Source of the DNA: Cytobacillus firmus
Lineage (GTDB): Bacteria; Bacillota; Bacilli; Bacillales; Cytobacillaceae
NCBI RefSeq assembly: GCF_023612095.1
Contig: NZ_CP086235.1
Coordinates: 2,987,501-3,051,500, forward strand
Length of the DNA: 64,000 bases
Direction of reading: 5' to 3'
Below are positions 20,862-43,898 of the stretch, in pieces. Below the pieces are notes generated by a model, which saw only the letters and a program-made list of their open reading frames with translations, searched no databases and was not told the origin of the DNA. Position numbers and translations under genes: made by a program. Numbering within the stretch: position 1 is the first letter of the stretch; every line of letters begins with the position of its first letter.

Positions 20862-20946
20862 TCTCAACAGACGCTCTTGCACAACCTATGTTTGCAGCGG
20901 AACATCTTTATCAGACGTAAACTGAACAAGTTCAGTCTTAGTCACA
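20862..20946 (-). ncRNA. Candidate L19 (rplS) mRNA leader
   Basis: The rplS 5' untranslated region starts just after the predicted -10 element. It contains a perfect seven-bp hairpin ACTGAAC-TT-GTTCAGT (20921-20936) and further pairing potential before the ribosome site. An L19 leader of this type is known upstream of rplS in Bacillus and relatives (Rfam L19_leader). The match is by position and hairpin, not by a covariance model. Confidence 0.5.
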
Positions 20947-24782: not shown

Positions 24783-25115
24783 CTAATCTAATTTCTCAAG
24801 CTCTGCCACTGCTTCTTCCAATGCCTGGCGGGAAGGGGAGCCTTCCCCCAGCATCTTTTTTATTTCTGCAATCAGCTTGCTGCGCTCTTGAAATTTATGA
24901 AATAATAGTAGCTTTTCTTCATACTCTTCAAGCATTGCTTCTGTTCTCTTAATGTTGTCATAAACCGCTTGCCGGCTAACATCATATTCCTCGGCAATCT
25001 CTCCAAGCGAAAAATCATCCAGGTAGTAAAGGGACATATAGCTTCTCTGCTTAGGAGTTAACAACGATTGATAGAAATCATAAAGGTAGTTCATCCTCGT
25101 TGTCTTTTCGAGCAT
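24783..25115 (-). CDS. ylxM: YlxM/p13-like DNA-binding protein, SRP-associated
   Basis: A 110-aa helix-turn-helix protein similar to sigma-70 region 4 ([24 protein letters not shown]), followed by a helical tail. It is always next to ffh in Gram-positive bacteria and is thought to modulate the SRP pathway. In B. subtilis ftsY lies directly upstream of ylxM; here the VWA operon and an IS come between. It now has a good own promoter. Confidence 0.95.
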
Positions 25116-25259: not shown

Positions 25260-28037
25260 TTATTTTTTCCTGTTTTTTGCATCCAGCAGCCTTTTCATCC
25301 GCTCTTCTCTTTCTTTCGGCGAGGGTTCTGCTGAAGGTTGAGTCAGGTTCGGCTTCTTTGCTTTTGTTTTCTCCGGTGGTTCCTTTACAGGAATTTCTTC
25401 TTGAAGTTTAACAGGCGCCTGTTCGGAAGGAGACGGTTTTTTCCTGGAAGCTTTAAGTTTTGGTACCTTCTTAGGCGCATCTGGCTTTTCTTTTACTTTT
25501 CTGTTTTTCTTCAGAATTCCTGCTGCAAGACCCGTCAGACCAAAGCGCCTTACTGCAATTTCTGAAAAAAAGAGCAGAAATGCAGCGATAAGCAGCCATT
25601 CGCTGATTGGCTGTTTGGTGCTTGCCGGTTTTTTCAGCGGTCGGAATGCTTCTTCCCCGCTCGTGAGCATCTTGCCTCCAGTCATTTTTGAGAGTGACTG
25701 CAAATTCTCATTATTTGTTCCCTTTTGCAAATACTCCTCAGAATAGGGAATGGTAAAACCGGTCTGATGAACCTGAATATTCCCATTCTGATCTGTCTGT
25801 TTAATATTTAAAAAGTACATACCCGCATTTTCAGGCATCAGCGCCTCATATTTACCTGGCGCAGTAAGCCTCATATTGGCTTTTATCTGTTCACCTGTTT
25901 CAGACACGATGGATGTCTCAATAGGCAAAGAAATGCTTGCCGCAGACTCCAGGCTGAGCACTGTATTACCATCCTTGTTCTCAACATCAACCCTGTATGG
26001 TTCACTTTCATATTGCGGCAGTGTTTTAGTAACAAGCTGATTAATATAGGTCGGCCACTTTTCCCAGCTTGCCCATTCTCCCGACCACTTGCCTGAGATG
26101 TCGGATGTAAAGGCCGCTGTCCATCCCATTCCATATTGCCATTCAGCAAGTACCGGGTCTTTTTTTTCACTTAACAGCGGCACCTGTGCCCGCGGCTTAG
26201 CAGTGGAAGCTATATAAGCATTCATTTCGGGCACACCTTTTTCAAAAAGGGAGGACCATTCAGGGTAAGGCTGGATAGTTGGGTAAAAAGGTTTGTCCTC
26301 GATATAAGTTCGCGTAGCCATTACGGTTTCACGTGATAAAATGCTTGGTATAACGGAAGAGTCTGTAACATCATAAAAACGCCCAGACCCCATTCCCGCA
26401 AGTTCTTCCAGCAGCCCTCTATCAGCATCCTGGCCAAGAGCAACAGTTGAGAGAGTGATATTCTTCTCTTTCCCGCTTTCAATTAAAAGCTCATAGTCTC
26501 CATTTGTGGCAGATTGGCCATCTGTCAGTAAAATGATATGCTTTCTCTGCAGCTGTAAATCTTCAAGCTCACTGTATGCCTGTTCCAGAGAGGTAAAGAT
26601 TTCTGTCCCCCCGCCCGGTGTAATGGATTTGATTTTTTCAATTGCCTTTTGCTTATCCTTGAGAGGCTTAGTTTCAAGGATTTCCCATGGACGGTCATCA
26701 AATGCAATGAATCCGAGTGTATCTTCTTCACGCAGCAGTTCAACTGAACGGGCTGCCGCCTCTTTCGCCAATTCAATTTTATTTCCTGCCATGCTTCCAG
26801 AACGGTCCATAACTAACACAAGACCTAGGGAAGGCATTTCTTTCTTGCCTTTGATATCCATATCCACTGGAAGCAATTTCTCGATCGGAGTTTTAAAATA
26901 GCCCCCCAGCCCAAAGCTTTCTTCACCGCCAAACATAATAAAACCAGTGCCGAATTCTTTCACTGCCTTCTCCATCAAGATCATTTGCTGCTCTGAGATA
27001 ACAGTTGCAGGGACATTATTAAAAATAATCGATTGATATTGCAAATAACCTGAGAGTACGGTCGGAAGCTTCTCTGGGATAACGATGTCTGTCTCCAGGC
27101 CTGAACCTTTTAAAAGATTTGCAAGATCGCCAGCTTCCTCTCCTTGTACGATCAGAACCTTAGGGGTACCCTTTACATTCACAACTGAGTGAAGTGCATT
27201 GTTTTCAGAGTAGGCATCCCGTTCTGCAGCTATCTCTGCTTTATATACCGTTAACCCTGCGGTATCCGCTTTGTGGGTAAACGTATAAACATTTTTCCCT
27301 TCGTTCACATGAACGGTTTCCTTTAATACTTCTTTATGATTTACCGATAGTCTGATATCAGCTTCTTTGGCAACGTTGCTGGTAACTTCTATTGTAATCG
27401 GAGCCTCTTCTCCTAAATATAGGGAAGGAGGAACGTTTAATTCTGAGATTGAGACATCGTCCCCTGCTGCTGTTGTTAATGGCACATGGTCAATCTCGAT
27501 ATTCCGATTTTTTAAAACTGCTGCAGCTTCCAGGCTATCGCCTTCCGTTTCATTCCCGTCCGTCATCAGGACAATTCTGCCGGAAGACTCCCTCGGAATG
27601 AGCGAAGCGGCAAATTGCAGCCCTGCTTCGAGATTGGATTGGGAATCTTCTGCCACTCCGTTAAATTCGTTTATAGCTTCACGGTTTCTGCCCAGATTCT
27701 GTTCAAGTACTGCATTTTTCCCAAAAGCAGCCACTGCGAATTGATCGTCATTTTTCCTGTGGCTGGTGCTGTTTTCTATCCAGGCAAGTGCTTCCTCATT
27801 CGTGCCAATGCTTGCAGAACGGTCGGCCAGAAATACGACGGTCTGTCCCTTTACCGGAAGAACCACCTGAGGAACGGTCAGTGCAATAATTAATAAAGAG
27901 AAAATGATCAGCCTCAAACCGGCAATCCAAAATTTTTCATTTCCTTTTCCGCTGTGATTTCGAATAAATAAAAAAACGATTATGACAACAGGAATCAGGA
28001 GGAGAAACAGGAAGGGATATTTAACCTCTATGCCCAC
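25260..28037 (-). CDS. Large membrane protein with two VWA domains and a GATase1-like domain
   Basis: Last gene of the VWA operon; 925 aa from a GTG start with GGGAGG 9 nt upstream, overlapping the previous gene by 17 nt. Two membrane helices lie at about 8-26 and 38-60. The first VWA domain has the metal-site motif DRSAS (72-76). A glutamine-amidotransferase-like region follows (about 293-390, TPKVLIVQGE to GTGFIMFGGEES). The second VWA domain has the canonical DRSGS (411-415) and LLTDGQS. A helix lies near 813-829, and the last 94 residues are a Lys/Pro-rich tail ending MKRLLDAKNRKK. The layout puts the VWA domains outside the cell. Function is unknown; metal-dependent protein binding is inferred from the domains. 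Confidence 0.85.
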   Translation of the reverse strand: MGIEVKYPFLFLLLIPVVIIVFLFIRNHSGKGNEKFWIAGLRLIIFSLLIIALTVPQVVLPVKGQTVVFLADRSASIGTNEEALAWIENSTSHRKNDDQFAVAAFGKNAVLEQNLGRNREAINEFNGVAEDSQSNLEAGLQFAASLIPRESSGRIVLMTDGNETEGDSLEAAAVLKNRNIEIDHVPLTTAAGDDVSISELNVPPSLYLGEEAPITIEVTSNVAKEADIRLSVNHKEVLKETVHVNEGKNVYTFTHKADTAGLTVYKAEIAAERDAYSENNALHSVVNVKGTPKVLIVQGEEAGDLANLLKGSGLETDIVIPEKLPTVLSGYLQYQSIIFNNVPATVISEQQMILMEKAVKEFGTGFIMFGGEESFGLGGYFKTPIEKLLPVDMDIKGKKEMPSLGLVLVMDRSGSMAGNKIELAKEAAARSVELLREEDTLGFIAFDDRPWEILETKPLKDKQKAIEKIKSITPGGGTEIFTSLEQAYSELEDLQLQRKHIILLTDGQSATNGDYELLIESGKEKNITLSTVALGQDADRGLLEELAGMGSGRFYDVTDSSVIPSILSRETVMATRTYIEDKPFYPTIQPYPEWSSLFEKGVPEMNAYIASTAKPRAQVPLLSEKKDPVLAEWQYGMGWTAAFTSDISGKWSGEWASWEKWPTYINQLVTKTLPQYESEPYRVDVENKDGNTVLSLESAASISLPIETSIVSETGEQIKANMRLTAPGKYEALMPENAGMYFLNIKQTDQNGNIQVHQTGFTIPYSEEYLQKGTNNENLQSLSKMTGGKMLTSGEEAFRPLKKPASTKQPISEWLLIAAFLLFFSEIAVRRFGLTGLAAGILKKNRKVKEKPDAPKKVPKLKASRKKPSPSEQAPVKLQEEIPVKEPPEKTKAKKPNLTQPSAEPSPKEREERMKRLLDAKNRKK

Positions 28038-29793
28038 GGCGATATACCTCCCATTCGATAACAATCAGGATTAAAGCTATGAACGCCAGCCAGAACCAGA
28101 GACTTTCATTAGGTCTTTGGGTCATGCTGCTTTTTTCAGATGATTTAGCATTCAGTGTAAAGGATTCTTCTGTTCCTGCACTTTTCTCCCTTTCATCCAG
28201 AAGGACAGAAAAATAATAAATTTGATTTCCAGATACAGCCTGGTAAGTTCCTGGGATTATAGGAGCTTTAAAGGTTTCCTTATTTAGATCAAGAGAGTAT
28301 AGATTTTCGTCTTGATTATTGAAAATTTCCCAGCTTCCAGTTTCATTGCCGATATTTAACCATCTTTCTTCACCGGAGCTGAAATATCCGAGGAAATCTG
28401 ATTGCTGAGATAGCCACTGGTAAGAGTTATACAGAAAGATTGGAAAACCGGGCAGGAGGGGCCAATCTGTGTCTGATAGATTAAAATTGACGATAATAAT
28501 TGGCTGCCCATTATGCATTCCCCTTTGGACTAAAGGAATATCCCCGCTTTTCAATACAGTCTCCCATTCTCCTTTCAGAACGGAGGATGCAGAACTGATA
28601 TACACCTTTTCAAAGTTTGCATATTCAAAAAGAGGATCCTCGTCCCCCGAAATTCCTTCTTCAAGTTTTGTTTTATCTTTGCTTGTATTAAAAAAGATTA
28701 TCGGCAGCTCCGGGAGTCCCGATAGGGTGCTTCCTTCCGCCACAACGACACCTTTCATATCCAAACCCTTTAGAGCAGACGGATCTGTCTGCAGCAATTC
28801 GGCACCAATAGTTTGAAAACCCTTCACCGCAAAGGGATTTACATCTCCCAAAGTGTAAACCTTAGGTTTTGGGTCAGTGTAAATAGAGGCTGCATGATTA
28901 TCTGCACTATAGCCATCGCTAATGGAGATAGCTGCCTCGTAGTAAGGTTTTTCCGGCAGATTTTTTATTTGAACGGTCTTCTCCTCATTTGTTTTTAATG
29001 ATAGATTCTGTTCAAACAGGACTTCTCCCTCAGATTTCACTGTAAAAGCTGTCTCTATATTTCCAGAAGACTGGTTTTCTATCACTGCAGCTGCTGAAAT
29101 ACCATCACCGGCGGCAGCTGTTCCAAACGACTGCAGCGACACATTCCCTGCGTTCTCTCCAATATTATGTACAACAGTATATAGACCGGCCAATTCCTTC
29201 ATTAAATCTTTCTTTCCAGCTGAGTCTGAAAAAATATGAAGAGCCGTGTCTTTTCCTGAAGATAAGGAGCCTGCCAAAAGAACGGCTTTTTCCATATTCT
29301 CATACTCATAAGTAAGCTCCAGCCCCTCAATGGTTCTTCGAATAGCATTAAGATCATCTTCCCGGCTTAAGAGAATCTCATTTTTCTCTCCTGCTTTAAT
29401 TAAGCTTACCTGCTGGCCATTAAGCTTGCCTGCCAGATCAAGCATTTCCTCTTTTGCGATCTCAAAACGGCTTTTCCCTCCGCTTTCAGCCGACATAGAA
29501 GCGGATGGATCAATGATGATGATTATGTGCTCTCCTTTTAAAGAATCTTCAAGCCAAAATGGACGCACAAGGGCCAGCATCAATAATAGAAGTGCCAATA
29601 ATTGCAGCCAAAATAACAGATTTTGCTGAAGCTTTTTCAGCCAGGGGGAAGCCTGCCATTCATTCAGCACCTGTTCCCAAAGCAAATTGGATGAATTCGT
29701 CTTTTCCTCATACTGCTTCCGAAAGAAATAAAATAGGACAACCGCTCCGATAAAAATGGATAAAATAAAATAAGCAGGATTTATGAATTGCAT
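28021..29793 (-). CDS. BatA-like VWA membrane protein
   Basis: A 590-aa protein that starts MQFINPAYFILSIFIGAVVLF, the BatA/Aerotolerance-regulator N-terminal layout with helices at about 7-24 and 60-77. A VWA domain has the MIDAS motif DPSAS at 95-99. A beta-rich extracellular part follows, and a C-terminal helix WFWLAFIALILIVIEW lies near 563-578. The ATG was chosen for AGGTGAG upstream and the BatA-type start; 42 in-frame codons before it overlap the DUF58 gene. It probably acts with the neighbouring MoxR and DUF58 proteins in the envelope. Confidence 0.85.
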   Translation of the reverse strand: MQFINPAYFILSIFIGAVVLFYFFRKQYEEKTNSSNLLWEQVLNEWQASPWLKKLQQNLLFWLQLLALLLLMLALVRPFWLEDSLKGEHIIIIIDPSASMSAESGGKSRFEIAKEEMLDLAGKLNGQQVSLIKAGEKNEILLSREDDLNAIRRTIEGLELTYEYENMEKAVLLAGSLSSGKDTALHIFSDSAGKKDLMKELAGLYTVVHNIGENAGNVSLQSFGTAAAGDGISAAAVIENQSSGNIETAFTVKSEGEVLFEQNLSLKTNEEKTVQIKNLPEKPYYEAAISISDGYSADNHAASIYTDPKPKVYTLGDVNPFAVKGFQTIGAELLQTDPSALKGLDMKGVVVAEGSTLSGLPELPIIFFNTSKDKTKLEEGISGDEDPLFEYANFEKVYISSASSVLKGEWETVLKSGDIPLVQRGMHNGQPIIIVNFNLSDTDWPLLPGFPIFLYNSYQWLSQQSDFLGYFSSGEERWLNIGNETGSWEIFNNQDENLYSLDLNKETFKAPIIPGTYQAVSGNQIYYFSVLLDEREKSAGTEESFTLNAKSSEKSSMTQRPNESLWFWLAFIALILIVIEWEVYRRGHRG

Positions 29794-29800
29794 ATCGCTC

Positions 29801-30667
29801 TCACCTGACCAGCCCCTTCGCATACAAATCCCTGAAAAGAACAGTCTGAAGATCTCTTGTTTCAGGGGCAAAGATATATTGGCCGCCATACCGCTTGCAT
29901 AAAACCTCAAGCTGTTCATTATGTTCTCTTAGGCGCTTTTCATATTCGGCCAATACGGCAGGGCTCATGCTCACATTTACAGCGGTCCCTGTTTCACTAT
30001 CAATTAACTTTACATCTCCAGAATATGACGGTGTCATTTCTTCATCAGCCTGCACCTGAAATAGCCAGAACTCCTGTTTCAGCCCTCTTAGCTTCCTAAA
30101 AAGGATTTCCCATTCCTGAAGCGGTTCAAAACCATCTGCTATTATTACAGCAAGCTGCTGGTGCTTTGAAAGAGTGTCTTTTAAGCTGCCCAGAAAGTTA
30201 TTGGACAGAGCAAAGGGTTCAATATCCTGGATTTCCATGAATGTCCGCCTGCTGTAAACAGAGCCTTTTCTTTTGATAGGCTGTATGCCAGCAGAAGAAA
30301 CAGGTGAAAACAGGAGCCGGTCTTCACCGGAAAGAATCATAAAGCTCAAAGCCGCAGCAAGAGCTTTGGCGTACTCCCATTTTTCTTCCATTTTGGTCAT
30401 TGATGAAGTGGCATCCAGATAAACAGCAATAGACAGTTCCTGCTCATCAAGGAAACGTTTAATATAATGTTTTTGTGTTCTGCCATAGACATTCCAATCT
30501 ATTTGCCGGATATCGTCTCCGGGCTGATATGCCCTGAAGTCAGAAAACTCCATGGAAGATCCGAATTTATGGGATTGCCTGGAACCTGAATGAAACCCTC
30601 TTTTCCTGGTCTTTACCGCAACTTTACGCTTCTGCAGCTTTCCAAGAAGGATTTGATGGCTGTTCAT
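29801..30667 (-). CDS. DUF58 domain protein (VWA-like)
   Basis: A 288-aa cytoplasmic-type protein. The DUF58 signature DFRAYQPGDDIRQIDWNVYG is at about 43-62, followed by a VWA-like fold with the metal motif DATSS (85-89). DUF58 proteins are nearly always encoded beside MoxR ATPases, as here. Its ATG overlaps the moxR stop (TGATG), so the two are translationally coupled. Role in the operon: a likely MoxR partner or adaptor (inference). Confidence 0.9.
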   Translation of the reverse strand: MNSHQILLGKLQKRKVAVKTRKRGFHSGSRQSHKFGSSMEFSDFRAYQPGDDIRQIDWNVYGRTQKHYIKRFLDEQELSIAVYLDATSSMTKMEEKWEYAKALAAALSFMILSGEDRLLFSPVSSAGIQPIKRKGSVYSRRTFMEIQDIEPFALSNNFLGSLKDTLSKHQQLAVIIADGFEPLQEWEILFRKLRGLKQEFWLFQVQADEEMTPSYSGDVKLIDSETGTAVNVSMSPAVLAEYEKRLREHNEQLEVLCKRYGGQYIFAPETRDLQTVLFRDLYAKGLVR

Positions 30668-31671
30668 CAGCTCTTAGCTCCCCGGGAATTTTCTTTTATT
30701 AGACCTTCAATAATCGAATCTGCCGTAATCCCCGCAGCTTCTCCTTCAAAGTTTAAAATGAGGCGGTGTCGCAGAACGGGATAGGCAACATTTTTAAGGT
30801 CACCTATTGAAACATGGTACCTTCCTGAGCACAATGCTCTTGCTCTTGCCATATTTATCAGGCTCTGGAGTCCGCGGGGACCGCTTCCATATTGGACGTA
30901 TTCTTTTACTGTTTCCGGTGCATCCTCTGAATCCGGATGTGTGGCAGTGATCAGCCATACAGCATAATCGAGAATATCCTCTGATACGAGGATTTCTCTT
31001 GTGAGTTCCTGAAGAGCAACTACATCATTCAGCCCGGCCGCTTTATTTAAATGAGTATTTTGCACACCTGTAGTTCTCCGGGCAATTTCTTTTAATTCTT
31101 TCTGTGTCGGATAAGCTACGTTCACCTTACAGATAAACCGGTCGGTTTGTGCCTCCGGCAGAGGATATGTTCCTTCCATGTCAATCGGGTTTTGAGTTGC
31201 AAGAACAAAAAATGGCTTTTCCATTCTTTTGGTTTCACCCATAATGGTAACCGTTTTTTCTCCCATTGCCTCAAGCAGGGCACTTTGTGTTTTAGGTGTT
31301 GCTCTGTTAATTTCATCTGCCAGGATGATGTTGGCGAATATGGGCCCTTTATGAAAGCTGAACGTTTGCCTGCCTGCTTCATCAGGCTGAAGCAGCATCG
31401 TTCCGGTTATATCGGATGGCATAATATCAGGGGTAAATTGAATACGGGAAAATTTCAGGTCCAGTACCTCTGCAATAGTCTTAATCAGCATCGTTTTACC
31501 AAGCCCCGGCAAACCTTCAAGCAAAACATGGCCGCCTGAGAAAATGCTCCATAATACTTGTTCGACTACTTCCTCCTGGCCTACTATAAATGATTGAATT
31601 TCATCTCTCACTCTTGCAATAATATCTGCTGCTTGTGCGAATTGCTGCTCTTTTTCCTGTGTTACGGACAT
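30667..31671 (-). CDS. MoxR family AAA+ ATPase
   Basis: A 334-aa AAA+ ATPase of the MoxR/APE2220 type, chaperones that work with VWA proteins. Walker A GLPGLGKT is at about 53-60, Walker B NIILADEINRATPK near 110-123, the sensor motif FVLATQNPIDMEG, the arginine region EAQTDRF and a C-terminal helical lid (YVQYGSGPRGLQSLI). It starts 5 nt after the upstream stop, with AAGGAG inside the last codons of that gene. A GTG three codons upstream is less well placed. Confidence 0.93.
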   Translation of the reverse strand: MSVTQEKEQQFAQAADIIARVRDEIQSFIVGQEEVVEQVLWSIFSGGHVLLEGLPGLGKTMLIKTIAEVLDLKFSRIQFTPDIMPSDITGTMLLQPDEAGRQTFSFHKGPIFANIILADEINRATPKTQSALLEAMGEKTVTIMGETKRMEKPFFVLATQNPIDMEGTYPLPEAQTDRFICKVNVAYPTQKELKEIARRTTGVQNTHLNKAAGLNDVVALQELTREILVSEDILDYAVWLITATHPDSEDAPETVKEYVQYGSGPRGLQSLINMARARALCSGRYHVSIGDLKNVAYPVLRHRLILNFEGEAAGITADSIIEGLIKENSRGAKS

Positions 31672-31676
31672 TGAAG

Positions 31677-33265
31677 TCACTCCTTGTCAGGATCTATACT
31701 TGTAAAATAATTTTTTACGATTTCCTCTAAATCAGCCGGCAGCTTATACCGGTCGGTGCTCTGCCTGTATGACGACTCATAATTTCCAAATACCTCACTG
31801 TAAGGTCTGATACTTCCTTTTAAAACAGGGCCTTCCCCTTCAAACTGCTGGCCTGAAGTACCCTGCCCCAGGCTGCCATTGTCATTTTCAATATTCGTCT
31901 TCCCTTCCATGCCAGAAGGAATAGTGAGCAGATCCCTGGATCCCTGTCCAAGTCCGGCACCTCCACCCAGACCGCTGCTGCCTGAACCACTCCCTGCGCC
32001 TGAGCCTGAACCAGATCCTGATCCGGATCCTGAACCAGATCCTGATCCGGATCCTGAACCACTTCCGGAGCCGCTGCCATTTCCGCTGTTTGGGCTATTG
32101 CCAGGCTGATTTTGATTATTATTTTGCGGATTTGGATTATTCTGCTGCGCAGGCGGTGATGAATTAGGATTATTTGCCTGCCCCCCGGCTGCCCGGGAGG
32201 CGCAAAAGCAAGCTGTCCAGGCGGCATTCCATTGGCTGCCATTTGCTGCTGTAATGATAGACCTGAACTTTGAAGAGCTTTTTGAGCTGCTGCCAGCTGG
32301 TTTAAGAGCTCCTCTGATTGCAAAGCCTTCTCGAGCTGTTCAATAAGTTTTGACAGTTCCTCTTCAGATAGCTCCCCTTCACTGCCGGTAAGCTGTTTCA
32401 ATGCATTGCTTTGTTCTTCATTAAGTTCCTTCCTTTGCTTTTGCTTCTCAAGTTTTGCTAATTCTTCCTGGAAAGAAGCCAGATCCTTCTCCTCTAGCAT
32501 TCGGCTTAATTTCTTTAAACCGCTATTATCAAGGGTGTTTTTCATGCTTTCCAGGCTAAGAGATTTTTCTTTTTCTTTGATTGCCTTTAATTCGAGGCTT
32601 TTTGTTTGTTTCGCAAGCTCCTTCAAGGCATCCTCAGCAGACTTTTTTTCTGCAATCTTCTCTTTCGCTTTCTCTAATGCTTTTTTTACTTCAGGATTCT
32701 TTTCTTTTTCTGCTTTTTTCTCAAGTTCTTCTTTTGTTTCTTCAACTAACTTGTTTTCCTTCTCCCATTTTTGTGCCAATTCCATTTTTTCTCCCGGAAT
32801 CATGTATAAAAGCACTGCCAGGCCTAGAAAAGCCAAACACATTAAAACAGGGTTAGGGTGAATGAAAACCTTCTTCCTGCCTAAAACCTGATGGTGTACC
32901 TTTTTCATATGCCTTACTGCATCTGCAAGCTGCAATCTTGCCAGAACAGCATCATCCAAAAGGAAAGAATGGGCTGTAATAACCCGATCTTCCGCTACAA
33001 ACCTGTTATACAATGAAGCCGCCTGGATTATGTCAGGCCGCTTCTTCCAAACCCGAATAGCAGCAACAAAAACTGAGAGCAAAATAATCAGCAGGAAATA
33101 GTTTTGCAGATATGGGATAACGAAAATTCTTGCTAAAATCATAAGACAAAAGGCCAAGACAGCGGCTGCTAAAAGGAATACCTGAAATTCCTTAACAATC
33201 AGCTGAATGAGGAGCTGTCTTTTTACCGGTTTTAAGAGTTTAAGATATTGATTGCGGTCTTCCAC
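31677..33265 (-). CDS. Coiled-coil membrane protein with Gly-Ser tail (apparent one-base frameshift at 32181-32186)
   Basis: Three N-terminal membrane helices (about 28-47, 54-72, 139-156) are followed by a Lys/Glu coiled coil (about 160-335). The frame as read then turns into basic, repetitive sequence after PPGQPGG. Adding one G to a six-G run restores GQANNPNSSPPAQQ, an Asn/Pro linker, about 30 residues of alternating Gly-Ser and a C-terminus ending RPYSEVFGNYESSYRQSTD and LEEIVKNYFTSIDPDKE. The restored length is 529 aa. The Tyr-rich end resembles the tail I associate with MoxR-neighbour membrane proteins, including some labelled DUF4175, which supports the repaired frame. Function is unknown. 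Confidence 0.8.
31993..32057. repeat. Short tandem repeat coding for the Gly-Ser tract
   Basis: A 24-bp unit (GATCCTGATCCGGATCCTGA plus ACCA) appears about twice with partial copies around it. In the repaired minus-strand frame it encodes alternating Ser and Gly. Such arrays can change copy number by slippage. Confidence 0.7.
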
Positions 33266-33290
33266 CGTATCATTCCCTTATTATAAATTT

Positions 33291-33321
33291 CGGGCAATCC
33301 CCACTCCGGAGGATTTGCCCG
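33291..33321 (-). other. Intra-operon hairpin between the permease and coiled-coil genes
   Basis: Long stem CGGGCAAATCC/GGATTGCCCG with a one-base bulge, in the 65-nt gap between two operon genes. It has no T-tract, so it may be a processing or stability element that sets different levels for the upstream ABC genes and the downstream VWA genes. Confidence 0.5.
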
Positions 33322-33330
33322 AATAACCTA

Positions 33331-34179
33331 CTAACCCTTTTTCATATTGGGACGGAGTTTTTTAATGCTAAGAAGCACAGCTCCAATGAAAATCAAAGTA
33401 TATGAAATTAAGTATGAAATCCATAAAGGAAATTCAATGCCTGTTGATCTTGTAATTTCATTGGTCATTTCCGGCTCAAAGGTACTCATCAGAATAATGA
33501 CCGGATTGAGCATAGCCGGGAAATATGCCAGCGGATTCGTCGGCTGAGTCCCAGTATACCCATATGCATTTGTTAACTGCATAAAAATTAAAGCAAGGAA
33601 AGCCGTTCCGCCTGCTAAAAATAAAGTAACCCCATAGGTGGTAACCATCGAGACAATGGTTTTTCTGATTAGCGTTGAAAATAAGACTCCAATGCTTCCG
33701 TAAACCACGATTGTAAACAAATAAAATCCCATTGTCGTAAGCAGCTGGCCTGGAGAAATACCTCCAAATAAAAACACAAAGCTATAAAGAGGCAAACTTG
33801 CCGCAATCAGCAATATTAAATATGAAATGGAAGAGATCAGCTTGCTTAATATTATGCTTGATGAGCTTTGAGTCGTCGTGAGCATGATATTTAAGGTCTG
33901 CCTCTCTCTTTCGCTGCTGATAACCCCTGCTGTTAATCCAGGGGTAATAAACAGAATCAAGCAAAGCTGCAATATAGATAAAACCATAAACATTGTCCGG
34001 CTCTGTTCCGGTTTAAAAAAGCCCTGCATGTTGTTTGACAGTGATTCAATAAAAATGAATCCAACAATGATTAGCCCTAATGCCAAGAGGTAAAATAGGA
34101 CACCGAGGTAACTTTTAAAGCTTCGGAAGCGGAGCTTAAATTCTTTATTCAGTACAGGATTTACGACTAAATTCTTCAT
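33331..34179 (-). CDS. ABC-2 type transporter permease
   Basis: A 282-aa membrane protein with six predicted helices. It starts MKNLVVNPVLNKEFKLRFRS, an ABC-2 style N-terminal coupling segment, and contains GVISSERERQTLNIMLTTTQ, a common motif of this permease family. Its ATG overlaps the ATPase stop by 4 nt, so the pair forms one exporter. The substrate is unknown. Confidence 0.9.
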   Translation of the reverse strand: MKNLVVNPVLNKEFKLRFRSFKSYLGVLFYLLALGLIIVGFIFIESLSNNMQGFFKPEQSRTMFMVLSILQLCLILFITPGLTAGVISSERERQTLNIMLTTTQSSSSIILSKLISSISYLILLIAASLPLYSFVFLFGGISPGQLLTTMGFYLFTIVVYGSIGVLFSTLIRKTIVSMVTTYGVTLFLAGGTAFLALIFMQLTNAYGYTGTQPTNPLAYFPAMLNPVIILMSTFEPEMTNEITRSTGIEFPLWISYLISYTLIFIGAVLLSIKKLRPNMKKG

Positions 34180-35111
34180 GTCAGCTCAACTCCCTTTGTA
34201 ATTTCCATAAAGACATCTTCCAGGTCTGTTTCGGCTTCTGCAAAGCTGGTAATGGCCAGATTACTTAATATGGCTCTTTTAAGAAGTTCTGTTTGCTCTT
34301 CAGTCGTCCCTTTATAAATAAACTGAAAAGATAACCCATCCTCCAGCAAAGATAATTTAAAAATATTTGGATCATCTTCGAAAAAGGAGATGGCATTTTC
34401 AGCATTCCCATGAACTTTTACAAGAATCAGTCTTTCTCCTCTGAGCTGCGACTGGATATCACCAACAGACCCCTGAGCCACCAGTTTACCCTGATCAATA
34501 ATGCCAATGGTATCGCACATTTCTGCAAGCTCAGGCAGAATATGTGAAGATATTAAAATCGTCTTGCCCATACTCTTCAATTCTTTTAATATTTCCCTCA
34601 TTTCTACCCTTGCTCGCGGGTCAAGTCCTGATGCAGGTTCATCCAGAATCAGGACTTCAGGATCATGAATCAGACATCTTGCCAGGCATAGACGCTGTTT
34701 CATCCCTCTTGATAGAAGGTCCACATATGACTCTCTTTTATGTGACAAGTTGACAAGGTCGAGCAGCTGCGGAATCAGCTTCTCGCGTTCTGCGAATGGA
34801 ATACCGTAACTTGCACCGTAGAAGTGAAGATATTCATCAGCCTTAAGCTGATCATAAACCCCGAAGAAGTCCGGCATATAGCCAATTTGCTTTCTTACGA
34901 GCTTTGGCTCCTTTTGCACATCATACCCGTTTACGTAAGCCGATCCCGAAGTTGGGGCAAGCAGGGTTGCCAAAATGGAAAAGGTTGTGGATTTTCCTGC
35001 ACCATTTTGTCCGACAAAACCAAAGACACTGCCTTTTTCAATAGTAAGATTTAAGGAATCCAGTGCTGTGAATTTTCCATATCGTTTCGTTAAATCTAAT
35101 ATTTCAATCAT
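34176..35111 (-). CDS. ABC transporter ATP-binding protein
   Basis: A 311-aa ATPase. Walker A is GQNGAGKST (34-42), the Q-loop lies in KQIGYMPDFFG, the signature is the variant LLSRGMKQRL, Walker B is VLILDEPASGLD and the H-loop is ISSH. A C-terminal extension of about 85 residues follows, as in many ABC-2 exporters. It overlaps both neighbours by 4 nt. Confidence 0.94.
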   Translation of the reverse strand: MIEILDLTKRYGKFTALDSLNLTIEKGSVFGFVGQNGAGKSTTFSILATLLAPTSGSAYVNGYDVQKEPKLVRKQIGYMPDFFGVYDQLKADEYLHFYGASYGIPFAEREKLIPQLLDLVNLSHKRESYVDLLSRGMKQRLCLARCLIHDPEVLILDEPASGLDPRARVEMREILKELKSMGKTILISSHILPELAEMCDTIGIIDQGKLVAQGSVGDIQSQLRGERLILVKVHGNAENAISFFEDDPNIFKLSLLEDGLSFQFIYKGTTEEQTELLKRAILSNLAITSFAEAETDLEDVFMEITKGVELT

Positions 35112-37483
35112 TTCGGCACCTCCCCTTTTATTGTTACAGCCGGCAATGGAACGAATGGATCTCCCTGTGAAGATTTAATAAGCTTCAAAACAAATCGGCC
35201 CTCTTTTGAAACATACTGAGACAAGTCATCTTTACTTGTCAGCTTTAAGCTCCTTTGATCCGGTTCAATCGGCAGCCATTCACCTGTTTTATGGTTTTTT
35301 AATGAATATTGTACGTTTTGGCTATTAATCCTTACCGAAATTTCTTCCAGTTTATAGGTTTTCTCTTTAAGCTGTTTCGGCAGGCTTAGAGAATATTCAT
35401 ATTCACCGTCTTCAAGCATCATTTCACCACTCGTGCTGTCCATGCCTTTTTCATAAATCTGTCCCTTAATCACATTCCAATCAGCTGCCATCATGCCATC
35501 CTTCAATGTAAATTCGCCGGAAAACTCATTTTTGGCCTCAAATGGCTGAACAATCAGATTGGTGTTATTCTGTTTTGCTTTCTTCTCTTTCATGGTTACA
35601 TCAATGACAGATTCTCTTGTAATTCCTGCAAGGACTGGCTGTGCAAGATCTCCGAGCAGAAATGTATTGGAAGCATATTGAAGCCTTTCTCTTCTTAATT
35701 TATTTATATCATTTTGGCTATTGGCAGGATTTCCTCCATTAAACGCTCCTCCGTACGGTCTGCTCAGAAGGGACTGTTTTGTGGCTTTATCTACTTTAAT
35801 GGTCTCACCTTTTTTGATTGAACCCAGTCTAATTGCTTCATTTCCTGACCAAATATATAACTCTTCAAAATCGAAGTCACTTTGGTTTTGAATTGTTCCT
35901 GTTAATCTTTTTTCCTTAAGGGTGATATCTGCTGTCAGTTTCCCATTTATTTCTGTTTGAGCTTTTCCGTAAATGGTTTTGGATGACCAATATTCTACCT
36001 CCGGGAAAATTATCTCATTGTTTTTTACTCTTTCAGCCATAATTCCGCCCCTAAGCGGGTCAGATGAGGTGGAATTGTTTGAATAAACCACAGCATTATA
36101 TTCACCTTTTGGCATTGAGAGGATGTATTCACCGCTTTTATTTGACAGCAGGGTTGAAGCCTGATAACCGGTAAGCAGATTGTTATTCACTTTATATATC
36201 CCCATCTGGTTCAGCTGCGGCTGAGAAATTCTGTCTTTTGCCCCCATTCCAAAGACAGCTGAACCCATTAAAATGGCAATAGAAGGAATGATCCACCAGG
36301 AATGCTCCCGTTTATCAAGCTTTCTTAACACAAAATAAAGCACAGGCACGATTAGAATAATATAACCGGCAAAAAGTCCAATAAGCTGTCCGACTGAAAA
36401 ATTGGATGCAGGAAAGAATTCATTTATTTCTGCAAATTCCCAATAAAGCTGATCAAGATAATCCTGTGAATAGGGGGTTGATCCATTGCCTGACCCTGAC
36501 GCCTGTTTCATATAGCCTTCAAACCATGTGTCATATCCCTGCCATGAAGATAAAGGCTCATCCCCCAGTGAAAAAGCTGTCTGCAAAATTGTCCCGCTTC
36601 CATACTCCTTTTTCAACGCTGCAGGGAGATCACCGCTTTTTGCAATAACTTCTGCACTCTTATCAACCGGACCAGTGAAGAAGTTGAGCTCATCAAATTT
36701 TGGCTCCTCTCCCTTCGCCGGCTGCAGGAATTTGACTGGGGCGGATGCCTCATTTTCTGATTTCATCGGCAGCAGTGAATATATATCTCCATAGGAGCCG
36801 CTTGCATCCGGGCCTCCTCCGGCAATCAGTGTTCCACCACTGAATATCCAGTCCCTTATAGCTTTTTGCTGTTTTTCACTGAGCTGTGAAACCTTAAATT
36901 CATCAATAAGCAAGTAATCGAGTGTCTCAAGCCCAATTGCATTATCCGGCAAATCTTCCCCTTTAAGTTCAAGCAGCGATTTAGAAGGAAGTGTCCGAAG
37001 CTCTTTTACACGGTCATAGTTTTCACTTAGAACTCCAATTACTTCAGTAGCCATATCTACAAATTTAGGTTTTAGTGTATTTTCACCTTTAAAACTAACT
37101 TTCTTTCCGTCTTTCCAATCTCCTTCATAAAGATTCAGCAATGGAATGTTCTGATACATGGAGGGATGGTCCTCCGTCATTCCAGGTATGGAAACCTGAT
37201 ATTCCTTAGCTGTTCCGGCAGGCAGCTCTACTTTTACAGAAACCGCACCACTGGTATTGTAGGATGGATGGTAACTTATCAGCAAATCACCGCTAAAGGA
37301 TTCACCTGAATTTTCCATCTTTATACGCAGAGGAAATCCCTCTCCTCTTTTTACTTTTCCGCCAAAGCCTTCATCGAGAGTAACTTTAATGCCTGTACCG
37401 GCTGCTTCTGCTGATTGGAATGGATGAAACATTAATACAAAGCAGAATAAAACCATAATGATTACTTTTAATTTACCGTGCAA
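35108..37483 (-). CDS. Secreted/membrane protein with GATase1-like domain (TTG start)
   Basis: First gene of the operon; 791 aa from TTG, with GGGGAG 6 nt upstream. A signal peptide is visible (about 5-28, ending SAEAAG). An outer beta-rich region is followed by a glutamine-amidotransferase-like region (about 145-240, LDYLLIDEF and IRDWIFSGGTLIAGGG), two membrane helices (about 364-386 and 397-414) and a second beta-rich domain of about 370 residues. The layout recalls auxiliary proteins of ABC systems such as GldG, but no close family was recognised. Function is unknown. Confidence 0.8.
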   Translation of the reverse strand: MHGKLKVIIMVLFCFVLMFHPFQSAEAAGTGIKVTLDEGFGGKVKRGEGFPLRIKMENSGESFSGDLLISYHPSYNTSGAVSVKVELPAGTAKEYQVSIPGMTEDHPSMYQNIPLLNLYEGDWKDGKKVSFKGENTLKPKFVDMATEVIGVLSENYDRVKELRTLPSKSLLELKGEDLPDNAIGLETLDYLLIDEFKVSQLSEKQQKAIRDWIFSGGTLIAGGGPDASGSYGDIYSLLPMKSENEASAPVKFLQPAKGEEPKFDELNFFTGPVDKSAEVIAKSGDLPAALKKEYGSGTILQTAFSLGDEPLSSWQGYDTWFEGYMKQASGSGNGSTPYSQDYLDQLYWEFAEINEFFPASNFSVGQLIGLFAGYIILIVPVLYFVLRKLDKREHSWWIIPSIAILMGSAVFGMGAKDRISQPQLNQMGIYKVNNNLLTGYQASTLLSNKSGEYILSMPKGEYNAVVYSNNSTSSDPLRGGIMAERVKNNEIIFPEVEYWSSKTIYGKAQTEINGKLTADITLKEKRLTGTIQNQSDFDFEELYIWSGNEAIRLGSIKKGETIKVDKATKQSLLSRPYGGAFNGGNPANSQNDINKLRRERLQYASNTFLLGDLAQPVLAGITRESVIDVTMKEKKAKQNNTNLIVQPFEAKNEFSGEFTLKDGMMAADWNVIKGQIYEKGMDSTSGEMMLEDGEYEYSLSLPKQLKEKTYKLEEISVRINSQNVQYSLKNHKTGEWLPIEPDQRSLKLTSKDDLSQYVSKEGRFVLKLIKSSQGDPFVPLPAVTIKGEVPK

Positions 37484-37672
37484 CCCAATCTCCCCTTTAA
37501 GTATCGTAAGTATTAGCTTTTTATATTTATAGGCAGCTTTTATAACTATAAATTATTGCCAGCCTGATAACTTCTTCCATTGTATAGACGCAGCTTAATG
37601 ACAAAAAGTTCCTGAGGATATTAAAATAATTTGTTATAGAAGTTAACCTTGATGAAGAACAGCATCATTACA

Positions 37673-37742: not shown

Positions 37743-37765
37743 AAAAAACAGCCTGAGAACCGATT
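37743..37765 (-). terminator. Distal half of the ftsY terminator, split by the IS
   Basis: AAAAAACAGCCTGAG plus loop AACCG and target copy ATT. It pairs with CTCAGGCTGTTTTTT at 39241-39255 on the other side of the IS. Before insertion this made a nine-bp stem with an eight-base loop and T-runs on both strands. Confidence 0.8.
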
Positions 37766-37801
37766 TGAACTATACCCCGGATAGCGGACACTGATAAAAA
37801 A

Positions 37802-37824
37802 GTGCCCCTATCTGGGGTTTTTTG
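37802..37824 (+). terminator. Hairpin inside the left end of the IS
   Basis: CCCC-TATCT-GGGG followed by TTTTTTGTG just inside the IS, upstream of orfA. It could shield the transposase from transcription entering from outside. Confidence 0.45.
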
Positions 37825-37863
37825 TGTTTCAATAGATTTAATGAATATGGGCGGAGGATTAAC

Positions 37864-38295
37864 ATGAGTAAGAATATTTATAATGAATTTCAAATTAAAG
37901 AGCTTGAAAAGAATCCTAATGTTTTATGCGCTTCTGAAAGGTCAATCTCCTATAGTCCTGAGTTTAAGCTAAAAGCAGTTACGGATTATAAAAATGGAAA
38001 AGCACCGTCGCAAATCTTTATTGAACAGGGCTTCGACCTGGACATGATCGGTAAGAAACAACCCCAGCGTTGTCTTAAACGTTGGAGGGATTCATATGAA
38101 AGGTTTGGAAAGGAAGGTTTCCTTACGGAACGTAGAGGCAAAGGGAGTACCGGGCGTCCTTCTTTAAAGCAACTTTCCGTAGAAGAGAAATTAAAAAAAG
38201 CTGAAGCAAGAATTAAATTCCTTGAGGCAGAGAATGACTTCTTAAAAAAGCTGGAAGAGTTAGAAAGGCAGGCGTTGAAGAAGAAACGATATTAA
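37864..38295 (+). CDS. IS3-family transposase OrfA
   Basis: DNA-binding part of the transposase, 143 aa. It has helix-turn-helix segments (YSPEFKLKAVTDYKNGKAPS and CLKRWRDSYERFGKEGFL) and a C-terminal leucine zipper (KKAEARIKFLEAENDFLKKL). The ATG follows GGAGG; an in-frame ATG 42 nt upstream lacks this. Near the 3' end, AAAAAAG at 38244-38250 is in the correct phase for -1 slippage to give the OrfAB fusion. Confidence 0.92.
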   Translation: MSKNIYNEFQIKELEKNPNVLCASERSISYSPEFKLKAVTDYKNGKAPSQIFIEQGFDLDMIGKKQPQRCLKRWRDSYERFGKEGFLTERRGKGSTGRPSLKQLSVEEKLKKAEARIKFLEAENDFLKKLEELERQALKKKRY

Positions 38296-39197
38296 CGGCA
38301 GCTGAGAAGTTTTCGCTGATCGAGAAAACAATCAGAATTCATCAGTTAAATAAAGTTGTTTCCTACCTGTGTGAACTGGCAGGTGTCAGTCGAAGTGGCT
38401 ACTATGATTGGTTGAAGGCTGCACCATTGCGGGCACAACGTGACGATCAGGATGAATTGGACATAGAGTTAATCCGAGAAATTTTCATAAGCAAAAGAGA
38501 AAAAGTAGGTGCCCTCCAGATTAAAATGGTTATGGAGAATGAGTATTCAGCTGTAATGAACCACAAGAAGATTAGACGTTTAATGGCAAAATATAATCTT
38601 GTAGCTAAGATAAGGAAAGCCAATCCATATCGTAAGATGGCTAAGGCAACTCAGGAACATCGAACCTGCCCTAACCTTCTTGACCGTGAATTCAATCAGG
38701 AAGTGCCAGGAAAAGTTCTGCTTACTGATATTACTTATCTTTATTATGGAAAGGGCCAAAAAGCATATTTATCCTGCGTAAAGGACGGAGCTACAAAAGA
38801 AATTCTTGCCTACTACCTTTCCACGTCTTTAGAGATGGATATTGTTTATAAAACGTTAAAAAAGTTAAAGACAGCTGTTGGCAACCACTTTCATCCAGAG
38901 GCCATATTGCATTCTGACCAAGGAATGCACTACACGCATCCTCTATTCCAAAGCAAAGTAAAAAGGCTTGGCCTAACTCAGTCAATGTCCCGAAAGGGAA
39001 ACTGTTGGGATAACGCACCAATGGAAAGTTTCTTTGGACATTTTAAAGACTTATCAGAGTATAAATCACTTGATAATATAAAGGATGTAAAGAAAGAAGT
39101 AGATCGTGTAATCGAAGAATATAATCATCATCGTTATCAATGGGGCTTAAATAAAATGACCCCGGCACAATACCGGGGTCACTTATTAGCTGCATAG
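38250..39197 (+). CDS. IS3-family transposase OrfB (by -1 frameshift from OrfA)
   Basis: Catalytic half with the retroviral integrase fold. After the slip at AAAAAAG the frame reads AGRVRKAGVEEETILTAAEK and continues to the stop. An HTH_21-like region (KREKVGALQIKMVMENEY, HKKIRRLMAKYNL) precedes the DDE core: Asp in LLTDITYLYY, Asp in ILHSDQGMHYT and Glu in APMESFFGHFK. No good start codon with an RBS exists, so it is most likely made as the OrfAB fusion. A hairpin GACCCCGG/CCGGGGTC lies over its last codons (39160-39182). Confidence 0.9.
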   Translation, partial: AGRVRKAGVEEETILTAAEKFSLIEKTIRIHQLNKVVSYLCELAGVSRSGYYDWLKAAPLRAQRDDQDELDIELIREIFISKREKVGALQIKMVMENEYSAVMNHKKIRRLMAKYNLVAKIRKANPYRKMAKATQEHRTCPNLLDREFNQEVPGKVLLTDITYLYYGKGQKAYLSCVKDGATKEILAYYLSTSLEMDIVYKTLKKLKTAVGNHFHPEAILHSDQGMHYTHPLFQSKVKRLGLTQSMSRKGNCWDNAPMESFFGHFKDLSEYKSLDNIKDVKKEVDRVIEEYNHHRYQWGLNKMTPAQYRGHLLAA

Positions 39198-39240
39198 CGC
39201 TTTTTTATAAACTGTCCGTAAATGGGGGTACAGTTCAATT

Positions 39241-39261: not shown

Positions 39262-40263
39262 TTATACTTCCTCTTCTTCTGCTTCTTTTTCAACAATGTC
39301 GGCAAAGAGTCCATAAACATATTGTTCTGCATTGAATTCCTGCAGATCATCCATTTTTTCACCTAAACCTACAAATTTCACGGGTATCTCCAGCTCATTT
39401 CTGATTGCCAGAACGATGCCGCCTTTTGCAGTACCATCCAGCTTTGTAAGAACGATGCCGGAAACATCTGTTGCTTCCTTGAAGGTCTTAGCCTGAATCA
39501 TGGCATTTTGTCCGGTTGTAGCGTCAAGAACGAGCAATACTTCGTGCGGGGCACCAGGTACTTCTCTTTCAATTACGCGCTTTACCTTTTCCAGCTCTTT
39601 CATTAAATTGACTTTATTTTGGAGGCGTCCCGCAGTATCACAGATTAATATATCTGCCTTGCGCGATTTTGCAGACTGAACAGCATCGTACATGACAGCT
39701 GCAGGGTCAGAACCGGCTCCCTGTTTAATGACATCCACACCGACACGTTCGCCCCATACCTCAAGCTGTTCAATCGCTCCTGCACGGAAAGTATCACCTG
39801 CTGCTAGAAGGACATTTTTCCCTTCACTTTTGAACTTATGGGCAAGCTTTCCGATTGTTGTTGTTTTTCCTACACCGTTAACACCAACAAACAGGATAAC
39901 CGTAAGTCCATCTGTCTGTATATTTAATTCTGTAGAAGTTTCGCCTGCGCTGTCATAAATGTCTACAAGCTTCTCAGATATTACTGCCTGAACCTCGCGG
40001 GGATCCTGAATATTCTTGCGCTTTACTTCCCTTCTCAGCTCATCCACCAGTTCCATGACAGTGTCAAAACCGACATCCGCCCCAATTAATATTTCTTCCA
40101 GTTCCTCGAAAAATTCCTCATCCACTTTCCGGTACCTTGAAACAAGGTCATTTACCTTATTTGAAAAATTATCGCGCGTTTTGGTTAATCCGTCTTTAAA
40201 TTTTTCAGTAACACTATCTGTCTGCATTGTGATTTTTTCTTTTAGTTTTTTAAAAAAACTCAT
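39262..40263 (-). CDS. ftsY: Signal recognition particle receptor FtsY
   Basis: SRP receptor GTPase at the membrane, 333 aa. It has a short charged N-terminal segment and the NG domain: [15 protein letters not shown] (G1), [13 protein letters not shown] (G2/insertion), CDTAGRLQ (G3), [12 protein letters not shown] (G4) and [11 protein letters not shown]. In B. subtilis it is directly followed by ylxM-ffh; here an IS and the VWA operon separate them. Confidence 0.98.
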
Positions 40264-43300: not shown

Positions 43301-43898
43301 TTTCCAGTTCATGAAGAATATCATTCACCCTGTTTAGGTTATCCTGGGTTTCAGAAAGCTTGCCTTCCGCCTTTTTCTTTCTTGTCTTGTATTTAAGTAC
43401 GCCTGCCGCTTCTTCAAATATAGTCCGGCGTTCTTCAGCTTTGCTGTTTAGAATCTCTTCAACTCTGCCCTGGCTTATGATTGAAAAAGCTTCCCTGCCA
43501 AGGCCTGAATCCATAAATAAATCTACAATATCTTTAAGTCTGCATGTTTGCTTATTGATCAGGTATTCACTGTCTCCGGACCGGTAGACTCTTCTTGTAA
43601 CACTGACTTCGCTGTAATCGATCGGCAGACCCTGTTCTGCGTTATCAAGCGTCAGTGTCACCTCTGCAAAATTCTGTGCTCTCCGGGAATCACTGCCCGC
43701 AAAAATGACATCCTCCATTTTCGCACCCCGAAGGGACTTAGCTGATTGTTCACCCAATACCCAGCGGATGGCATCAGTAATGTTGCTTTTCCCGCTTCCA
43801 TTTGGACCGACAACTGCTGTGACGCCTGGAACAAAATCAACCGTTATCCGCTCAGCAAACGACTTAAATCCAATAACATCAAGCCTTTTTAAAAACAA
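40333..43898 (-). CDS. smc: Chromosome segregation ATPase SMC (apparent one-base frameshift at 40622-40625)
   Basis: Condensin ATPase that organises and segregates the chromosome. Walker A GPNGSGKSNITDAIRW is at the N-terminus. Coiled coils flank a hinge in the middle (GFFQGVKEVLKARGSRLQGI and VVNPGGSMTGG). Near the end the frame breaks within NLGLLSGGERALTA, where the raw frame gives NLGLLSGEKGHLQP. One added G in a four-G run restores the ABC signature and joins it to VPFCILDEVEAALDEAN (Walker B). The repaired length is 1188 aa, close to B. subtilis SMC. The break would delete the ATPase half-site, so a sequencing error is likely. Confidence 0.95.

Follow-up and report, generated by a model that had tools for sequence, protein, structure and literature searches.

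An eight-gene operon of MoxR, DUF58, VWA and ABC-2 transporter proteins between ftsY and ylxM of Cytobacillus firmus, a candidate membrane machine

The window analysed here is a 64,000-nt stretch of Cytobacillus firmus DNA (contig NZ_CP086235.1) in which eight genes, whose products we call P1 to P8 in order of transcription, lie on the minus strand between ftsY (39262-40263) and ylxM (24783-25115), as an earlier reading of the sequence (the original prediction) had claimed for their place, order and strand. They encode a membrane protein with a GATase-like fold (P1), an ABC-2 ATPase and permease (P2 and P3), a coiled-coil membrane protein (P4), a MoxR AAA+ ATPase (P5), a DUF58 protein (P6) and two VWA proteins (P7 and P8). 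We put at about even the chance that the eight genes specify one membrane machine, in which, at times of envelope stress, the MoxR-DUF58 pair would act as a motor that remodels the ABC-2 transporter and VWA/GIFT proteins of the membrane. One functional unit is supported by the gene order, the co-occurrence and the joint loss of the genes. An envelope machine had already been suggested in the original prediction; our results partly support that reading and correct it in the details of P4 and of the gene junctions.

Gene order, co-occurrence and apparent joint loss

The order of the eight genes is identical in 22/22 close loci (L023 and L040 being the same contig) and in 16 of the 19 loci from further genera, the other three holding P1-P3 only. 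Outside the taxonomic order, the arrangement is kept in 15/19 loci found by profile, namely 4/4 from the same class and 11/15 from other classes, the latter drawn from 38 such genomes with a strong P8. Recurrence of the genes together in other genomes had been named beforehand as a point on which the original prediction hung, and these counts bear it out. Loci were picked by a P1 or P8 match and the order counts are therefore silent on how often the genes occur apart, a question to which a count in 397 genomes speaks, for P1 and P8 only.

In this count, which covers the taxonomic order (397 genomes, 135 genera), P1 is found in 60 genomes of 27 genera, and P8 matches in 89 genomes, 37 of them short or partial and 52 full-length (1079 bits or more). 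A full-length P8 never occurs without P1, all 52 falling within the 60 genomes with P1 (Fisher p 5e-57, in a test that ignores shared ancestry); one full copy (G169) carries an in-frame stop. In the remaining eight genomes with P1 there is no full P8, and the locus consists of P1-P2-P3 with no P4-P7, which were looked for at the locus only. Since every full P8 comes with P1 and these eight genomes hold P1-P3 only, the P4-P8 genes appear to have been lost together and to require P1-P3, and the transporter can do without P8. P8 debris lies directly 3' of P3 in L107 and L108, the contig of the former stopping 1.3 kb past P3.

The genes are also closely packed. In the window, the junctions measure -4 nt for P1/P2 and P2/P3, +65 for P3/P4, -4 for P4/P5 (counting the downstream frame of P4), -1 for P5/P6, +7 for P6/P7 and -17 or -44 for P7/P8, depending on the P8 start. 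The tight spacing described in the original prediction is confirmed, with six of seven junctions overlapping or below 10 nt, where five had been counted. Among 22 relatives, P1/P2 is -4 in 21, P2/P3 -4 in 18, P4/P5 -4 in 14 and P5/P6 -1 in 16; P3/P4 ranges from -4 to 460, P6/P7 is 5-11 in 20, and P7/P8 overlap by 17-44 in all 22.

Within narrower and wider samples, P1 is present in 39/61 relatives (one match weak and partial) and in 31/36 genomes of the genus. In the five operon-less genomes of the genus ftsY and ylxM adjoin, the gap being about 0.2 kb in three and 0.7-1.0 kb, with no detectable remnants, in two. Across the class (398 genomes, 146 genera) P1 is found in 146 genomes of 62 genera, many of the matches weak or partial, and across the phylum (299 genomes) some P8 match occurs in 91 and a P8 of 200 bits or more in 40. 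None of the 39 records found in a plasmid search covers more than 80% of P8. A link to sporulation was considered (Spo0A in 39/40 genomes with a P8 of 200 bits or more vs 218/259 others, Fisher p 0.025) and set aside as weak and lineage-confounded.

The nearest named records by P8 are three of Cytobacillus firmus (93-95%) and one filed as Paenibacillus (96%), followed by C. oceanisediminis and a Bacillus sp. (88% each). In L023, titled Paenibacillus sp. FSL R5-0490, the operon proteins are 94-100% identical to the window copy (P4 90%), and the name of this record is probably wrong. In a further locus (L178:8822-10312), a 496-aa minus-strand open reading frame (ORF), perhaps an inserted element, stands between P5 and P6.

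Several aspects of this distribution weigh against a single machine. In its own genus, 5/36 genomes lack the system, full P8 is missing from 8/60 genomes with P1, and P2 is missing from 3/15 loci of other classes (L186-L188). Two of these (L186 and L187) keep P1 and P4-P8 with no recognised P3 and an ORF in its place, and the third (L188) keeps P5, P6 and a P7/P8-like ORF, P1, P3 and P4 being replaced by unrecognised ORFs; L176 is incomplete, the locus being cut at the contig end. In this regard, one transcript could serve two machines, a self-sufficient ABC-2 exporter (P1-P3) and a Bat-type MoxR/VWA complex (P4-P8) with its own client, having regulation and not mechanism in common. The genomes with P1-P3 and no P8 fit this idea, as do Bat regions elsewhere for which the available text lists no ABC-2 pair (PMC5700661) and a VWA-MoxR-DUF58 cluster of Ketogulonicigenium, likewise with no listed ABC-2 pair. 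We nevertheless regard it as rather unlikely, given that full P8 is never found apart from P1 in the 397 genomes, that the order persists in 11/15 loci of other classes, and that a predicted GATase-like domain is common to P1, P7 and P8.

The eight products and a model for their interplay

P1 (35108..37483, minus strand, as are all eight genes; 791 aa) comprises a signal-peptide helix, a beta-sandwich, a GATase1/GIFT-like domain (residues 145-331), a transmembrane (TM) hairpin (364-418) and a C-terminal beta region. The modelled fold of residues 145-331 resembles GATase1-like and IFT52 N-terminal domains, so that P1 stands as the signal-peptide membrane protein with a GATase-like fold that had been proposed. 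The window P1 has no match in a Pfam scan. Among 25 P1 members, 21 match PF24157 (DUF7408; best E 5.7e-8) and six match PF14258 (DUF4350) weakly (best E 0.033). Profile matches of DUF7408 also occur in Haloferax and Methanosarcina, used as archaeal control genomes, and none occurs in the own genome. P1 relatives extend beyond Bacillota, one match being named Promineifilum (Chloroflexota). The source names of P1 and P7 relatives (best 120 of each) are mostly hypothetical, VWA or BatA domain-containing, and DUF7408. A lone match of the P1 profile among solved structures, an mRNA hydrolase (E 0.02), was discarded; in these structure-match lists, a family that is not listed is not thereby excluded. 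Many genomes of one family (f68) have two P1 matches, and in L085 (15513-18360) a second, diverged P1 copy and a P3-like piece lie upstream of a complete operon.

P2 (34176..35111) is an ABC ATPase of DrrA/GldA type (ABC_tran, 105 bits) and P3 (33331..34179) an ABC-2 permease (ABC2_membrane_2, PF12679, 39.8 bits). P4 (31677..33265) was described in the original prediction as a coiled-coil membrane protein with a Gly-Ser tail. This architecture holds: an N-terminal hydrophobic stretch with room for two TM segments, a TM segment at about 134-160, a coiled coil, a Gly-Ser linker and a conserved C-terminal motif. Its reading as one open frame in the window does not: at a run of six G (32186-32181), or close to it, the 481-aa ORF departs from the conserved frame, and a different frame encodes the Gly-Ser tail and the conserved C-terminus, ending DPDKE, up to a stop that overlaps the GTG of P5. 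In all 22 relatives examined P4 is a single open frame of 503-561 aa. The window P4 has no Pfam match; DUF4175, suggested earlier, is absent among the best 25 of 29 Pfam families listed for P4 relatives, and the CFAP143 and TrAA12 matches of these relatives were discarded as low-complexity. In two genomes of one genus (L174 near 9493, L175 near 8942), an in-frame TGA splits P4 at the same place.

P5 (30667..31680) is a MoxR AAA+ ATPase (AAA_3, 211 bits against a cut-off of 27, plus AAA_lid_2), with its Walker A and B motifs, sensor 1 and arginine finger kept in 23/23 sequences and 2r44 as best sequence match among solved structures. It adjoins P6 (29801..30667), a DUF58 protein by Pfam with a MIDAS-type (metal ion-dependent adhesion site) D-x-S/T-x-S motif and no predicted TM segment; DUF58 has a VWA-like fold. 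A second MoxR of the genome, 43% identical to P5, lies away from the operon (C1:4231000-4240000; L193, L002 and L046) and adjoins a DUF58 protein that is longer and hydrophobic at its N-terminus.

P7 (28021..29793) starts at 29793, giving 590 aa as in its relatives, and not at 29919. It has a BatA N-terminus with two TM segments (PF07584, 49.5 bits, cut-off 25.9), a VWA domain (VWA_2), Ig-like and GATase-like parts and a C-terminal TM segment, and a BatB fold is among its structural matches. P8 (25260..28064), for which GTG 28037 may be an alternative start to TTG 28064, has two TM segments, a first VWA stretch, a GATase1-like domain (27.6 bits, just past the cut-off of 27) enclosing a second VWA stretch, a further TM segment and a basic C-terminal tail, conserved at its end and a candidate contact for P5 and P6 in the cytoplasm. 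A GATase/GIFT-like fold is thus predicted to be common to P1, P7 (both from models) and P8 (from the Pfam match). In L188 (11301-16154), a 1617-aa ORF joins P7-like and P8-like parts, which suggests a contact between P7 and P8.

These features allow us to propose a model, at the probability given at the outset. A cytoplasmic ring of P5 would work through P6, by analogy with NorQ/NorD, and the P5-P6 pair would remodel P4, P7 and P8, at the cytoplasmic faces of these proteins or of the transporter. Remodelling would enable these three to form an assembly with P1, the GIFT-domain partner, and the P2-P3 transporter, or to switch them. Hydrophobicity and models, together with the topology measured for BB0173, a BatA-type protein, suggest that the VWA and GIFT parts probably lie outside, and P1, P7 and P8, sharing the predicted GATase-like domain, may meet there. 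P1-P3 are taken as the partner because of the dependency of P8 on P1, the presumed client of P5-P6 being the ABC transporter, and export is the putative output because the transporter is, by sequence, of ABC-2 type. To the exceptions in distribution must be added, on the negative side, that the window P1 matches neither DUF7408 nor DUF4350, and that Leptospira biflexa with its bat genes deleted had no oxidative phenotype and none in growth or morphology (PMC3557215).

The conserved MIDAS motifs of the VWA proteins could also be read in terms of signalling, P7 and P8 using MIDAS to bind a ligand of the wall or surface outside the cell and signalling inward to MoxR/DUF58, which would gate the transporter. 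The VWA domains predicted to lie outside and the conserved end of the P8 tail agree with such a sensor, which we consider unlikely: no signalling domain is found among the Pfam matches, and in NorQ/NorD the MoxR protein and its VWA partner act as a remodelling motor (PMC9976466, PMC13036017). The same pair puts iron into cNOR (PMC9976466), and P5-P6 might in this manner mature a metal-dependent client, which could be a metalloenzyme not linked to the operon or the MIDAS sites. Six of the eight products being membrane or ABC proteins, and no metalloenzyme being among the Pfam assignments of the eight, a metal-insertion chaperone appears very unlikely to us. A role in conflict or defence, as in the ternary MoxR-vWA systems, is less credible still and, in our judgement, highly improbable. 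P5 does pass the bpMoxR cut-off of Pfam (45.5 vs 27 bits), but AAA_3 is a far better match, and no effector or beta-propeller partner is among the Pfam matches of P1 to P8. PADLOC gives no match for P1, P3, P6, P7 and P8 and a generic ATPase-type match for P5 and P2 (P4 was not submitted), a search of viral contigs for close relatives of P8 found none, and gene content and order are stable.

A predicted envelope-stress promoter and its surroundings

Upstream of P1 lies a predicted promoter of the extracytoplasmic function (ECF) sigma type (37587..37612, minus strand; GGAACTTTTT...CGTC, with 17 between AAC and CGTC; full sequence at 37612-37587, GGAACTTTTTGTCATTAAGCTGCGTC). Its CGTC agrees with the -10 element of sigma-M (PMC6827917), and its upstream element with the -35 of sigma-W, TGAAACxTTT (PMC6713349). 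The motif was scored over 310 bp against GAACTTTT / CGTCTA, with AAC and CGT obligatory, a spacing of 16-18 and a threshold of 11 of 14, in 66 genomes of 27 genera for which sequence upstream of P1 was at hand. It reaches the threshold in 50/66 genomes and 16/27 genera, or 27/42 genomes and 15/26 genera with the own genus excluded, vs 49/8634 control windows (0.57%) and 3/553 control ORF upstreams (0.54%). In a shuffle test, p is at most 0.05 in 26/33 hand-picked representatives. According to our model, envelope stress would, in this bacterial order, activate the machine through this promoter.

Other results speak against that part of the model. We fixed the scoring rule only after the motif and a first scan of the upstream regions had been seen, and the exact rate is optimistic for this reason, although the gap to the controls is still more than 100-fold. 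The motif stays below threshold in 11/27 genera and, among the 14 of 19 loci from other orders or classes that were scored (the other five having been left out), in 14/14, with a best score of 10 of 14. In the own genome, the pattern is not over-represented (10 sites vs 58 for a control pattern), nor is a second one (22 vs 52), and a genome-wide ECF regulon derived from the pattern was rejected, as there are fewer sites than for control patterns. No cognate sigma gene was found, 0/9 of the other sites in the genome preceding a sigma gene recognisable by eye.

A palindrome, GTGTAAAATTACAC, lies upstream of the motif at about 37686-37673 on the minus strand and recurs in all five relatives looked at (L040, L041, L042, L043 and L044); it is possibly an operator. 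In another genome (L135), the region upstream of a secreted protein, presumably of DUF1002 type, contains a strong ECF-type motif (TGAAACTTTTT..CGTCTATT).

Between ftsY and P1, and overlooked in the original prediction, an IS3-family element (37760..39238, plus strand, with ORFs at 37822-38295 and 38412-39197) sits in the loop of the ftsY terminator hairpin (arms 39251-39239 and 37759-37743). It is not part of the machine and leaves the predicted P1 promoter untouched, and in L040, L041 and L043 the hairpin is uninterrupted. Also in the window, the frame of smc (40578-43898) is broken at a G run within the conserved LLSGGERALT stretch, which is open in the same three relatives. Two breaks at G runs within about 9 kb, one of them in a core gene, suggest that the P4 and smc breaks are indel errors of the assembly. 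On the other side of the operon, ylxM and then ffh follow 3' of P8, and a match to the ribosomal protein L19 leader (RF00556, 38.7 bits) lies at 20868-20908.

Relation to known systems and significance

In the parts of the open-access literature that were searched, no named system with this gene set was found. One of the closest descriptions is that of the arCOG01314 (DUF4350)-MoxR-vWA genes of archaea, predicted to form a secretion or membrane-remodelling complex (Makarova, Galperin, Koonin 2015; PMC5898192). Much as proposed here, a GldG-like flavodoxin-fold membrane protein is combined there with MoxR and a secreted vWA protein; a MoxR and a vWA protein are present in the Cytobacillus operon, and DUF7408, matched by most P1 relatives, also matches in the two archaeal control genomes. 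It differs in that its table lists Ig-like and S-layer-type proteins and that the arrangement of eight genes, with the ABC-2 pair, P4, the BatA-VWA and the double-VWA protein included, is not described in the available text (PMC5898192).

The Bat systems of Bacteroides and spirochaetes are MoxR-DUF58-BatA regions (PMC5700661, PMC3557215), and P7 resembles BatA in its TM-VWA layout. No BatD, TPR or SH3 match passes the Pfam cut-off here, P4 relatives included (one sub-threshold TPR_5 match lies in P8), and the ABC-2 transporter, P1 and P4 are additional in the Cytobacillus operon. RL3499-RL3502 of Rhizobium leguminosarum is an MRP-type MoxR operon whose mutants show envelope and morphology defects (Vanderlinde 2011, as cited in PMC5700661 and PMC3893208), a likeness drawn from descriptions in these citing papers. 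Together with the promoter type, this phenotype points by analogy to envelope maintenance as the probable output of the machine. RL3499-RL3502 is not known to include an ABC-2 transporter.

With GldA-GldF-GldG, the operon would share an ABC-2 ATPase and permease accompanied by an extracytoplasmic partner of GATase fold, a fold that GldG has (PMC5898192) and that is predicted for P1. Against the NCBIfam cut-offs, however, P2 scores 235.4 vs 402.6 bits for GldA and P3 33.3 vs 288.5 bits for GldF, and no GldG family is among the sequence matches listed for P1. NorQ-NorD and RavA-ViaA, as far as their available descriptions go, have a MoxR ring with a VWA partner and provide the working principle used for our model; here, the TM-less VWA-like partner would be the DUF58 protein, and the VWA proteins are anchored in the membrane. 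NorD and ViaA are not known to be anchored proteins of BatA type. By membership, then, the system is neither Gld nor a complete Bat nor a conflict system, and it is a variant of the MoxR-VWA kind; by analogy, it would work as though a Gld-like ABC transporter had been coupled to a MoxR/VWA complex of Bat or RL3499 type.

At its widest, the proposal would be that of a Gram-positive, AAA+-powered and envelope-stress-induced exporter or wall-repair engine found across the phylum, in which MoxR-DUF58 drives the ABC-2 transporter through MIDAS/GIFT proteins on the outside and P4, with its coiled coil and Gly-Ser arm, extends into the wall, an idea that we put forward tentatively and hold to be somewhat doubtful. 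The persistence of the gene order from Cytobacillus to other classes of Bacillota suggests one old machine and not a loose cluster. The predicted ECF promoter points to envelope stress as the condition to look under, and the loss of P4-P8 with retention of P1-P3 offers a concrete test of whether the MoxR-DUF58 pair acts on the ABC-2 transporter. Through the link to P1-P3, the operon bears on the wider question of the targets of Bat-type MoxR/VWA complexes.

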